Shown: in pieces, positions 56,230 to 59,040 of the stretch | How positions within the stretch are numbered: position 1 is the stretch's first letter | Layout: each line of letters opens with the position of its first letter | Assembly: GCF_039542905.1 (NCBI RefSeq) | Contig: NZ_BAABIS010000001.1 | Location: 5,084,001-5,148,000 of the forward strand | DNA: 64,000 nucleotides | Direction of reading: 5' to 3' | Origin: Kitasatospora terrestris | GTDB taxonomy: Bacteria; Actinomycetota; Actinomycetes; Streptomycetales; Streptomycetaceae | Notes under the pieces: model-generated | The model's database searches: none | Told to the model about the DNA's origin: nothing | What the model saw: the letters and a program-made list of their open reading frames with translations, nothing else | Position numbers and translations under genes: made by a program

Positions 56230-56241
56230 CGGGTCGTCGGG

Positions 56242-56278
56242 CGAAGGGCCGCTCCCGCGGGTCGGGGGCGGCCCTTCG
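56242..56278 (+). terminator. Terminator after peptide deformylase
   Basis: CGAAGGGCCGC (56242-56252) pairs with GCGGCCCTTCG (56268-56278) over 11 bp with a 15-base loop. It isolates the following peptide locus from def transcription. Confidence 0.7.
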
Positions 56279-56290
56279 TGCTGCCGGGAC

Positions 56291-56335
56291 GCGAGAGCGC
56301 GGCCACACCGCCGCCACACCGCGGCTGCCTAGATT
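56291..56335 (+). promoter_or_regulatory. Predicted SARP-bound direct repeats and -10 of the peptide operon
   Basis: GCCACACCGC occurs at 56302-56311 and again at 56313-56322, an 11-bp period. A weaker copy, GCGAGAGCGC, is in register at 56291-56300. The -10 TAGATT (56330-56335) starts seven bases after the second copy. SARP regulators bind heptamer direct repeats spaced 11 or 22 bp, about 8 bp upstream of the -10. A start near 56342 leaves a 29-base leader to the peptide gene. Confidence 0.6.
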
Positions 56336-56370
56336 CGGTGGCACCTGACAGCTATCGGAGAGGAGACGAC

Positions 56371-56493
56371 ATGCCGTCCCAGACCGTGGAACTGCCGAAG
56401 ACCGAGGTGGCCGCCGAGTCGGCGCCCAGCATCACCACCGACGCGCCGCACGAGCGCGCGTGGTTCCCGCCGTACCTCGCCCCGGCGAAGTAG
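56371..56493 (+). CDS. Precursor-like peptide of a putative RiPP locus
   Basis: 40 residues from ATG 56371 with a strong ribosome site (GGAGAGGAG). The first 25 residues are polar and acidic like a leader (MPSQTVELPKTEV, then APSITTDAP); the C-terminal 13 are quite different, HERAWFPPYLAPAK being rich in aromatic residues and proline, and look like a core peptide. There are no cysteines, so it is not a lanthipeptide or lasso type with Cys rings. It sits directly in front of a HExxH peptide-hydroxylase-type gene with a PqqD-like domain. The assignment is from context and peptide design; no known precursor family was recognized. Confidence 0.65.
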   Translation: MPSQTVELPKTEVAAESAPSITTDAPHERAWFPPYLAPAK

Positions 56494-56503
56494 CGGCACC
56501 GGC

Positions 56504-56545
56504 GGCGGGCCGGTCACCCCGGGCGACCGGGGTGACCGGCCCGCC
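56504..56545 (+). other. 19-bp hairpin between peptide and modifying-enzyme genes
   Basis: The arms 56504-56522 and 56527-56545 match perfectly over 19 bp with the loop GCGA, a GNRA tetraloop. There is no T-run. It could be a partial terminator or an RNA-stabilizing element making more peptide than enzyme mRNA, as in many RiPP operons. Confidence 0.8.
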
Positions 56546-56591
56546 GTCCGCGCGCAGCCAGGTCCGCACTCCGATCCCATGAGGTGAAGCC

Positions 56592-58052
56592 TTGCCGTCC
56601 TCCGCACCGATCGACCGCATCCTCGGCACGGACCCGCAGTTCGGGGACAGCGCCGCCATCGAGGCCAGGAACATCGCCCGGTTCCGGCTCGGTCTGACCG
56701 TCCTCGCCCGCCGCTTCCCCGAGGCGGCCGACCGCTTCGAGCGGCTGGGCCGGGAGGCCGACCCGGTGCTCCGCCCGTTCCTCTACGACCCGGTGCTGCG
56801 CAACGCCTTCGAGGACGACCTGGTCGCGCTGGAGAACCACCGGCAGGACCCGAGTGAGCTGGCCGCCCACCTGGGCGCGGCCGACCTGGACGCCGCCGAC
56901 GGGCTCGGCCCGTGCGAGCGGCTGATGGACCCGCGCCACCGCCCCTGGCCCGGCCGCGGCGTCGGCTGGGTGTGGACCGACGTCCGCCCCGGCACCGGCG
57001 CACTGCCGCTCGCCGCCCGGCTGGAGGAGCTCTGCGCGGGCACCTTCGCCGACCTGCGCGGCGCCCGCCGGGTCAGCCCCGACGAGAAGGCCGTCACGGG
57101 TCTGACCCGGGGCGCCGAACTGCTCGCCGAACTCCTGCCGCACTCCGGGGCCGGCGTCTTCCCGCACATCTCGCTGGTGGGCCTGGCCCGCGGCGAGACC
57201 GACGACGGCGAGCTGTACTCGCTCTCCGGCGGCGACCCGCTGCCCTCGGCGCTGTTCATCGCGCCGGAGCACCTGGACGACCCGTGGGCGACCGCCGAGA
57301 TCCTGCTCCACGAGGGCCTGCACCTCAAGCAGTTCGACGTGCTGCGCACCGGCTCGCTGGTCGCCGACCCCGGCCACCAGGTGGAGATCCCGTGGCGGCT
57401 GTCACCCTGGTCGCTGACCCGGGTGCTGGCGGCGCTGCACGTCTACGCCCACATGGTGCTGTTCTTCGCGGCCGCCGCCGAGGCGCCGGCCGGGCTGCGC
57501 GAGCGCTTCGGCGAGCCGCCCGTCACCGAGGACGTCGGCGTGCCCACCCCCGGCAGCCGGGCCGCGCTGGAGGGCGGGTTCACCACCAGCGCCCAGCGGG
57601 CCACCTACCTCGGGTACCAGGCGCTCCAGGTGCACGGCGGGGCGCTGACCCCGGCCGGGCGGCGGTTCGTCGAGTGGCTGCTGGACGCGGTCGCGCCGCT
57701 GGTGCCCGCGGTGCGGACCCCCGAGCCGGCCGCCGACGGCCGCGCCGACGCGCCGGCCGCCGACCGCTCCGGCGAGCCGCCCGCGCCGGAGCCGCGCGGC
57801 TACCGCAAGGTCGAGCCGGTGGCGGTCTGCGCACTGCCCGAACAGCGTCAACTGCTGGCGTACGCGCCCGGGCCGGCCAGGTTCCACTGGTTGAACGAGC
57901 ACGCCTGGCTGATCTACGCGCTCTGCGACGGCAGCCCCCTGGGCGCGATCGAGGAGCGGTACGCCGCGCAACTGGGCACGGTGGACCGGCGCCTGGCAGC
58001 CGGACTGGCCGGCCTGGTGGCGGCCGGGCTCGTCGCCCCGGTCGGCGACTGA
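56592..58052 (+). CDS. aKG-HExxH-type peptide beta-hydroxylase-like enzyme with PqqD-like domain
   Basis: 486 residues from TTG 56592, with GAGGTGA just upstream. The central domain carries the metal motif HEGLH at residues 240-244 (EILLHEGLHLKQF) followed by HQVEIPWRLSPWSLTRVLAA, a pattern of the HExxH peptide-modification proteins associated with RiPPs and recently linked to alpha-ketoglutarate-dependent beta-hydroxylation. A Pro/Ala linker (about 375-400) joins a C-terminal 85-residue domain. That domain (FHWLNEHAWLIYALCDGSPL, then GLAGLVAAGLVAP) resembles PqqD-type RiPP recognition elements, which bind leader peptides. It would bind and hydroxylate the 40-residue peptide. Substrate and chemistry are inferred. 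Confidence 0.75.
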   Translation: MPSSAPIDRILGTDPQFGDSAAIEARNIARFRLGLTVLARRFPEAADRFERLGREADPVLRPFLYDPVLRNAFEDDLVALENHRQDPSELAAHLGAADLDAADGLGPCERLMDPRHRPWPGRGVGWVWTDVRPGTGALPLAARLEELCAGTFADLRGARRVSPDEKAVTGLTRGAELLAELLPHSGAGVFPHISLVGLARGETDDGELYSLSGGDPLPSALFIAPEHLDDPWATAEILLHEGLHLKQFDVLRTGSLVADPGHQVEIPWRLSPWSLTRVLAALHVYAHMVLFFAAAAEAPAGLRERFGEPPVTEDVGVPTPGSRAALEGGFTTSAQRATYLGYQALQVHGGALTPAGRRFVEWLLDAVAPLVPAVRTPEPAADGRADAPAADRSGEPPAPEPRGYRKVEPVAVCALPEQRQLLAYAPGPARFHWLNEHAWLIYALCDGSPLGAIEERYAAQLGTVDRRLAAGLAGLVAAGLVAPVGD

Positions 58053-58186
58053 GGGGCCGCGCCACCACCTGGCGGATCCGGCACACGGAAGTTCGAGTGC
58101 GGTGCATCCTGGTAGTCCTTGAACCGGGCACGACCGGGATGCCCCCGGGACGCCCGGCTGCGACACCCGGTGGAGGGGAACCCTGC

Positions 58187-59008
58187 ATGACCGTCCTGTC
58201 TGACCTACCGGCCCCGGCCGCCACCGCGGCCGGGCCGGCCGGACCCGAGCAGCACCGGACCACCCGTCTCGGACTGCTCGGCCCGCTCCGACTGTGCCGC
58301 CAGGGCACCGAGATCGCCGTCCCGGCACCCAAGCACCGCGCCCTGCTGGCCCTGCTGGCGATCAACGCCAACCGGCCCGTCCAGGTCGACCGCATCATCG
58401 GCGAACTGTGGCAGGACCGCGAACCCAAGACCGCCCGCAAGACCCTGCAGGGCTACGTCTGGCGGCTGCGCACCCTGCTCGGACCCGGCGCGCTGCACAC
58501 CACCGGCAACGGGTACGAACTGCGCGCCGCCGCCGACGCGATCGACGCGGTGCGCTTCGGGATGCTCGCCGAGCGGGGCCGGGCCGAGCTGCTGGCCGGC
58601 CGGCCCGAGCAGGCGGCGCGCCTGCTGCGCCCGGCCCTGGGCCTGTGGCGCGGCCCGGCGCTGGCCGACGTGCCGGTGGCGCCCGGCGCGTACGCGTACG
58701 CCAGCCGGCTGGAGGAGGAGCGGCTGACCGCCACCGAGTGGCTCATCGAGGCGGAGCTGGCGCTCGGCCGGCACGCCGAGGCGGTGCCGGTGCTGCGTGA
58801 GCTGGTGGTCGGGCAGCCGCTGCGCGAGGGGCTGCGGGCGCAGCTGATGCTGGCGCTGTTCCGCAGCGGCCGGCAGGCGGAGGCGCTGGCCGAGTACGGC
58901 GAGCTGCGGGCCCTGCTGCGGGAGGAACAGGGGCTGGACCCGGGCCGTGCGGTGTCCGAGCTCCAGGCCCGGATCCTGGCCGGCGACGCGGGGCTGGAGA
59001 ACGGCTGA
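58187..59008 (+). CDS. SARP-family transcriptional activator
   Basis: 273 residues from ATG 58187, with GGAGGGG about nine bases upstream. An OmpR-like winged-helix domain (about 24-115: RLGLLGPLRLCRQGTEIAVP, then ALLALLAINANRPVQVDRII and TARKTLQGYVWRLRTLLGPG) is followed by a bacterial transcriptional activation domain (about 120-265, with the helical repeats FGMLAERGRAELLAGRPEQA and RLTATEWLIEAELALGRHAE). This is the short SARP architecture of pathway-specific activators. It ends the putative peptide locus and could bind the repeats at 56291-56322. A 16-bp palindrome covers its stop. Confidence 0.9.
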   Translation: MTVLSDLPAPAATAAGPAGPEQHRTTRLGLLGPLRLCRQGTEIAVPAPKHRALLALLAINANRPVQVDRIIGELWQDREPKTARKTLQGYVWRLRTLLGPGALHTTGNGYELRAAADAIDAVRFGMLAERGRAELLAGRPEQAARLLRPALGLWRGPALADVPVAPGAYAYASRLEEERLTATEWLIEAELALGRHAEAVPVLRELVVGQPLREGLRAQLMLALFRSGRQAEALAEYGELRALLREEQGLDPGRAVSELQARILAGDAGLENG

Positions 59009-59040
59009 GGGGGGTGCCGCCCGCGGGCGGCACCCCCCTC
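59007..59040. terminator. Bidirectional terminator between SARP gene and nrdB
   Basis: A 16-bp perfect stem (59007-59022 with 59025-59040) contains GGGGGGTGCCGCCC and includes the end of the SARP stop codon. It serves two convergent genes. Confidence 0.75.

Follow-up and report, generated by a model that had tools for sequence, protein, structure and literature searches.

Whether a peptide of 40 residues, one enzyme and one regulator can make up a pathway for a ribosomally synthesized and post-translationally modified peptide (RiPP) is the question raised by a compact locus of Kitasatospora terrestris, found in a 64,000-nucleotide stretch of contig NZ_BAABIS010000001.1 (assembly GCF_039542905.1, positions 5,084,001 to 5,148,000 of the forward strand), hereafter the window. 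Three plus-strand genes, packed in 2.7 kb of this Kitasatospora genome, encode the peptide, an enzyme of the HExxH type and a member of the Streptomyces antibiotic regulatory protein (SARP) family, and an original prediction, made from the window sequence alone, had seen in them the logic of a RiPP cluster. Comparison with related loci supports that logic, and the prediction was right in the main: two of the conditions named as refuting it, a small ORF not conserved next to the enzyme homologues and a C-terminal domain unlike RREs, were examined, and neither held. The locus is likely to be a minimal RiPP operon, in which a core with the pattern WxPxY undergoes leader-guided oxidation, probably β-hydroxylation, under the control of a dedicated SARP. 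As judged from sequence, the locus belongs to a RiPP family with a WxPxY core, a single α-ketoglutarate (αKG)-HExxH enzyme fused to a RiPP recognition element (RRE) and, in this lineage, the dedicated SARP.

Results

A conserved peptide with a WxPxY core adjoins the enzyme

The comparison covered 29 loci, one per genome, with 20 full-length homologues of the enzyme, 3 split enzymes and 6 other, distant HExxH enzymes; these loci are related by descent and are not independent. Because the large genome searches scored 4 or 7 first-look candidates per genome, the prevalence figures given below are possibly lower bounds. A small open reading frame (ORF) with R-x-W-x-P-x-[Y/F/D] within its last 25 residues was sought near the enzyme, and such a motif peptide adjoins it in 21 of the 29 loci (18 of the 20 full-length and all 3 split-enzyme loci, the latter with the peptide downstream of the enzyme), against a chance background of one other motif ORF in all 419 kb, both strands. 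Of the two full-length loci without it, one (L028) lies where its contig breaks off, 184 bases short of the enzyme, and the other (L022, Kitasatospora sp. Root107) retains the leader, MPSQTVELP..AESAP, and has another sequence in place of the core. No motif peptide was found at any of the six distant HExxH loci (L044, L058-L062), where quite different small ORFs, identified by eye, lie upstream of the enzyme. In a phylogenetic tree, from which L057 was left out, a branch supported at 100/100 has the enzymes with a motif peptide on one side, with the two full-length relatives that lack one, L022 and L028, falling among them; the split-enzyme group joins the group of the window at 100/99, in a set that comprises 22 rows (midpoint root).

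The association also emerges from whole genomes. A DNA pattern for [DEHQ]-E-R-A-W-x-P-x-Y was present in 9 of 394 family genomes, and eight of these nine, as matched by genome number, are among the 11 that carry the enzyme in the same draw (Fisher p 1.1e-13, with genomes taken as independent though related); the ninth match falls within an unrelated 202-aa ORF, and the three enzyme genomes without the pattern are accounted for by REWLPSD (G013), loss of the core (G035) and RLWPPWY (G184). Within the genus, the enzyme occurs in 4 of 70 genomes, a patchy distribution. The R, W and P of the 21 peptides are fixed by construction, all having been found by the motif, and the core tyrosine is present in 19 of them. 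The residues that follow the motif vary in sequence and in number (4-8), and the core is common to two bacterial families (f1, f17). The ratio of nonsynonymous to synonymous polymorphism (pN/pS) of the peptide is below 1 in all 15 pairs compared, ranging from 0 to 0.91 on small counts. The peptide has the features of a RiPP precursor: its small ORF is conserved, a modifying enzyme lies next to it, and it shows motifs for both leader and core. A chance ORF is rejected by its recurrence beside the enzyme, by pN/pS and by the co-occurrence of the core pattern.

One branch of these peptides has already been recognized as a RiPP, since the peptide of the split-enzyme locus L021 matches the NCBIfam model NF052677 (RiPP_LWPPW, 'LWPPW motif RiPP peptide') with 101 bits, over a cut-off of 50. 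The eight ERAW-type peptides scanned, that of the window included (up to E 10), do not match this model; the window peptide matches no family model, and the sole match of any model among the ERAW-type peptides, that of L013 (E 0.18), is weak and spurious.

Other precursor-like genes were seen in the same set. Before the distant HExxH enzymes of L060 (6106-6291) and L061 (6941-7126; all coordinates of related loci are oriented) lies a precursor-like ORF ending in RCPVLYCAAMYDSGP. Genes that by eye are LanB-like follow downstream of these enzymes, and the ORF is likely to represent a RiPP family of its own. In L044 (6901-7089) and L059 (6902-7096), the small ORFs before the enzyme have His/Asp-rich tails (DHDHDH), which fit known Asp/His hydroxylation. 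The HExxH-peptide pair adjoins class I lanthipeptide-like genes (LanB/LanC-like, by eye) in three loci, L019 (9488-15251), L039 (8813-14570) and L015 (5897-7288 and 9123-14278; enzyme oriented +), and L019 and L039 also hold a precursor-like ORF containing GGFSNWYSCKG.

The enzyme belongs to the αKG-HExxH family

The original prediction of an HExxH hydroxylase-like enzyme is borne out by a match to NCBIfam TIGR04267 (aKG-HExxH-type peptide beta-hydroxylase) at 66.1 bits (E 3.8e-18), well over the cut-off of 40, and by the presence of HEGLH. All ten homologues scanned match the same model (E<=1), and a profile built from ten homologues finds ChlH (PDB 8s5f; E 2.9e-4) across the HExxH region. 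On these sequence grounds the catalytic domain is assigned to the αKG-HExxH family. Among the 29 enzymes aligned, 28 retain the HExxH motif, L067, a misaligned row with a radical S-adenosylmethionine (rSAM) protein, not being counted. The exception is L057 (G1164), where peptide, operator and SARP are intact and the enzyme lacks about 135 residues that include HExxH. Candidates for the third metal ligand are H283, found in all 28 enzymes that keep the region, and H287, found in 24; the ChlH profile alignment pairs H287 with a ChlH histidine.

A second, stronger TIGR04267 domain (166 bits) occurs elsewhere in the genome of the window, at G000:C1:4726416-4726931 (locus L067), in a long frame that by eye resembles a fused rSAM-HExxH protein. 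Peptides of FxSxx-COOH systems terminate in FxSxx. Such a system, or a fused rSAM-HExxH one, was rejected for the window locus, which has no rSAM gene and a peptide ending in LAPAK.

The C-terminal domain resembles RREs and the leaders share a motif

A PqqD-like domain had been proposed at the C-terminus of the enzyme, and the similarity extends, at the level of sequence, to its homologues. Pfam PqqD is matched by 9 of 10 family members at E<=1 (best 7.3e-7). L042 (18.6 bits) and L055 (20.7 bits) score under the cut-off of 23.4. The split-enzyme relative L021 encodes this domain in a gene of its own, whose score (25.8 bits) exceeds that cut-off. A structural model of the window domain, examined for the winged-helix fold of RREs (predicted local distance difference test score, pLDDT, of 69), shows strands followed by helices, and its best VIA alignment is to the RRE of the lasso peptide protein TbiB1 (Z 7.9, rmsd 3.9, 83 residues). 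The six best VIA entries, at Z 5.7-7.9, are TbiB1 twice, ThcOx, a lasso B1 protein, TigE and a heterocyclase, with MccB also listed after them, all of which we take to be proteins bearing an RRE-type recognition domain.

A segment [VI]xxPx[LIF] occurs within the first 16 residues of 18 of the 19 full-length-type leaders, and it was absent from the three LWPPW-type peptides. Lasso peptide leaders carry a YxxPxL motif (as given in part of PMC10368454). Since the leader resembles YxxPxL and the best structural match of the RRE is a lasso RRE, the mode of recognition is probably common to the lasso RRE and the window enzyme.

A SARP-type promoter precedes the peptide gene

The third gene had been called a SARP, and its domains agree: it matches Pfam BTAD (150 bits, 6.5e-44) and Trans_reg_C (31.8 bits, 1.5e-7), the composition of a small SARP. 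In SARP promoters, according to part of PMC10936776, direct repeats lie 11 bp apart and the 3' repeat lies 8 bp from the -10 element. The sequence before the peptide gene, CACACCG-N4-CACACCG-N8-TAGATT (56304-56335), has this arrangement, which recurs in each of the five small-SARP loci (window, L013, L014, L056, L057; the SARPs of the latter four are 58-76% identical to that of the window) and in L022. No further match was found in 419 kb, both strands, with a loose pattern drawn from those same six loci. In the 8.57-Mb genome, the full pattern of the window, including the -10, has a single match at <=3 mismatches; because this strict pattern was taken from the window site, more diverged SARP targets could be missed. 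Two further bare ACACCG repeat matches in the genome fall within called genes or at their ends, show no recognizable -10 and were dropped as SARP targets.

The regulators differ among the loci. Larger SARP-type genes, 38-41% identical in this part, are present in L041, L055 and L018, and several Streptomyces-genus loci have an opposite-strand gene resembling a LuxR-type response regulator (by eye). From these differences it follows that the peptide-enzyme pair is the core module and the regulator an exchangeable part. In L041 a different 11-bp tandem repeat (GTTATGCGCCC twice) lies between the large SARP-type gene and the peptide, with a similar one in L055, and is possibly a parallel operator candidate. 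The Root107 locus (L022, L002) appears to be decaying: leader, operator and intact enzyme frame are kept, the core is lost, and no SARP homologue was found in the 16 kb of L022.

Hairpins flank the genes and separate peptide from enzyme

The genes had been described as insulated by terminators on both sides. Strong G+C hairpins do follow the deformylase gene upstream and the SARP gene, but the scan found no stem with a T-run, so that only the hairpin part of this description stands. A third hairpin, absent from the original prediction, lies in the gap between peptide and enzyme. A hairpin of 13-26 pairs is predicted to begin 1-36 bases past the peptide stop in all 18 loci folded (L021, L042, L043 and L022 were left out), with z-scores from -0.5 to -6.2 (window -4.7), a range in which the hairpins are not all individually better than shuffled sequences. 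Partial terminators are common between precursor and enzyme genes. The hairpin of the window, which has no T-run, is most likely one of these, setting the peptide above the enzyme.

Locus layout and coordinates

Gene calling with a codon-usage model, for which the window served as training set, selected each of the three genes at the positions originally claimed (Table 1). They are the only genes called between a peptide deformylase gene upstream and ribonucleotide reductase subunit-like genes (labelled by eye) on the other side, and the earlier claim that no transporter or protease is encoded holds for that interval, on inspection of the gene list by eye. The antisense ORFs that span the locus, 200-300 aa long, are shadows of the kind usual in high-G+C DNA, and the window-wide gene call selected none of them; one of them, called on a 3-kb fragment only, was set aside as an artefact of short input. 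No relative was found in viral contigs, and enzyme and SARP have no PADLOC match at E<=0.01. In two Kitasatospora loci, L013 (5693-7246) and L022 (4812-6302), an inserted oligopeptide-binding-like gene separates the peptide from the deformylase gene.

Table 1. Predicted features of the locus, in window coordinates
Feature	Position	Strand	Basis
G+C-rich hairpin after peptide deformylase gene, no T-run	56240..56280 (limits approximate)	+	RNA folding of 56230-56310, -50.4 kcal/mol
Putative SARP-type operator, CACACCG twice, 11 bp apart	56304..56321	+	Same arrangement in related loci
Putative -10 element TAGATT, exactly 8 bp past second repeat	56330..56335	+	SARP promoter spacing rule
Precursor peptide MPSQTVELPKTEVAAESAPSITTDAPHERAWFPPYLAPAK, 40 aa	56371..56493	+	Conserved beside enzyme
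Leader segment VELPKT (family consensus [VI]xxPx[LIF])	56386..56403	+	Leader comparison
Core motif R-A-W-F-P-P-Y (family R-x-W-x-P-x-[Y/F/D])	56455..56475	+	21 motif peptides
Hairpin between peptide and enzyme genes, 20-bp uninterrupted G+C stem, 4-base loop, longer with bulges	56503..56546	+	RNA folding
Predicted aKG-HExxH-type peptide oxidase with C-terminal RRE, 486 aa, TTG start	56592..58052	+	TIGR04267, ChlH profile match
Predicted HEGLH metal site, residues 240-244	57309..57323	+	HExxH alignment of relatives
C-terminal PqqD-like RRE domain, residues 403-486	57798..58049	+	Pfam PqqD in homologues, domain model
Small SARP-family activator, 273 aa	58187..59008	+	Pfam BTAD, Trans_reg_C
Hairpin after SARP gene, no T-run found	59007..59040	+	RNA folding

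Discussion

In the proposed mechanism, the small SARP would bind the two 11-bp repeats and turn on transcription of the peptide gene, and the hairpin after that gene would pass only part of the transcription to the enzyme gene. The PqqD-like RRE of the enzyme would hold the N-terminal half of the peptide, with its [VI]xxPx[LIF]-type leader, and deliver the R-x-W-x-P-x-Y core, in the C-terminal part, to the HExxH site with its Fe and αKG, where the core would be oxidized, most likely by β-hydroxylation. As the residue attacked, the conserved proline is tentatively favoured; the tryptophan is a more doubtful second, followed by the tyrosine or the arginine. Leader and variable tail would then be cut off, either by the enzyme or by proteases whose genes lie outside the locus.

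Several observations weigh against this reading. The window domain scores 15.4 bits against Pfam PqqD, under the cut-off, L056 has no PqqD match at all, and the fold scores are modest, with the best VIA Z below 8, some unrelated proteins at Z 4-6 and a best Foldseek E of 0.15; the model of the full-length enzyme (AlphaFold2, two sequences) reached a pLDDT of only 40 and was unusable. The sole leader that departs from the consensus is that of the window itself, which ends in T, and the core tyrosine is replaced in two peptides, by D in L013 and by F in L056. At the window locus neither a protease nor an exporter gene was seen by eye, and a canonical sigma-70 hexamer pair was not found. The small SARP is present, within the sequence examined, at 5 of the 20 full-length loci, and is for that reason not part of the core module.

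The apparent lack of a protease would be explained if the enzyme itself cleaved the backbone oxidatively, whether or not it also hydroxylates; the tail would be lost and the peptide would end in an amide close to the WxPxY core. PflC and PosC, which cleave at ARMD (PMC12636437, in part), are a precedent, and the varying tail also fits; however, the alignment holds no conserved ARMD-like tail, and proteases encoded elsewhere serve some RiPP pathways (same source), and we regard such cleavage as unlikely. A bolder proposal, and an improbable one, is a class of RiPPs that need one enzyme only: an αKG-HExxH/RRE protein would oxidize the core, perhaps by joining W to Y or by hydroxylation of the intervening proline, and would also cut the backbone, so that a separate protease is unneeded, and the product would have a conserved role in two actinomycete families. 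The HExxH protein might, on the other hand, be an ordinary zinc metalloprotease that trims the peptide, with the RRE serving cleavage. HExxH is indeed a zincin signature, and PflC hydrolyses a truncated substrate at the same site (PMC12636437, in part), but the TIGR04267 score well over its cut-off, the ChlH profile match and a core far more conserved than the tail make this very improbable.

That the core is so strongly conserved from genus to genus and between families would fit a mature peptide whose receptor or role is fixed, a signal or a compound akin to a cofactor, and not an antibiotic or another kind of effector, and the lack of a visible exporter at the window locus and the oligopeptide-binding-like genes (family F2, by eye) near 5 of 10 loci other than the window point the same way. 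The patchy distribution and the SARP control, however, resemble secondary metabolism, and genes resembling the major facilitator superfamily (MFS) adjoin the peptide in three Streptomyces-genus loci (L017, L036, L037, by eye); a signalling role is accordingly rated a long shot. That the 40-residue ORF is not a gene, its conservation arising from an RNA or promoter element, is scarcely credible: the ORF is short, matches no family model and has strong hairpins adjacent, but the pN/pS values, the core amino acids common over wide divergence and a sister peptide curated as a RiPP all speak against it. Leader-guided oxidation of the core under the SARP is the reading we prefer.

The αKG-HExxH enzymes have been recognized recently, and the window locus offers a readily testable RiPP branch, in which enzyme, leader-binding domain, 40-residue substrate and switch lie within 2.7 kb and no other modifying enzyme confuses an assay. 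Nature also supplies a series of 20 distinct peptides, whose heptamer cores are of nine kinds, as well as a null in Root107, where the core is lost, and a deletion of the enzyme in L057. The core motif strings were not found in the open-access papers searched, among which LWPPW strings turned up in two unrelated ones; subscription papers could describe the family.

The closest known relative, RiPP_LWPPW, likewise has a short precursor beside a TIGR04267 enzyme and a PqqD-like domain, and its core RLWPPWY fits R-x-W-x-P-x-Y, but its RRE is a separate gene, its peptide lies downstream and its leader lacks [VI]xxPx[LIF]. ChlH/ChlBH, PflC/PosC, PesO and BipH/BpmH share the TIGR04267-type HExxH catalytic domain and act on RiPP precursors, but their clusters are larger (rSAM fusion, MNIO, nitroreductase, nitrile synthetase), whereas the window enzyme is the only modifying enzyme seen at its locus and its putative core is WxPxY; it also bears a C-terminal RRE. 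In the parts of the sources consulted, ChlBH hydroxylates Asp and His following cyclophane formation, PflC/PosC carry out Gln hydroxylation and oxidative backbone cleavage (PMC12636437), PesO acts on Pro (PMC13060819) and BipH is a member of the αKG-HExxH family (PMC12707348). Characterized members hydroxylate His, Asp, Phe, Gln and Pro residues, and a 2026 preprint holds the reactions of αKG-HExxH and MNIO enzymes to be at present unpredictable (both from part of PMC13060819). The regulator resembles other small SARPs in its Trans_reg_C and BTAD domains and in the spacing of its putative repeats, and differs in the repeat itself, CACACCG, and in the one genomic target found with the pattern from this site. 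As for the lasso systems, the window locus shows no lasso protease or cyclase gene, a hydrophobic residue replaces the Tyr of YxxPxL in the family leaders, and the window leader lacks the last hydrophobic residue; the lasso B1 RRE of TbiB1 is nevertheless the best fold match of the C-terminal domain and the leader resembles its motif, suggesting, if the reading is true, that a lasso-type leader code has been reused by an oxidase.

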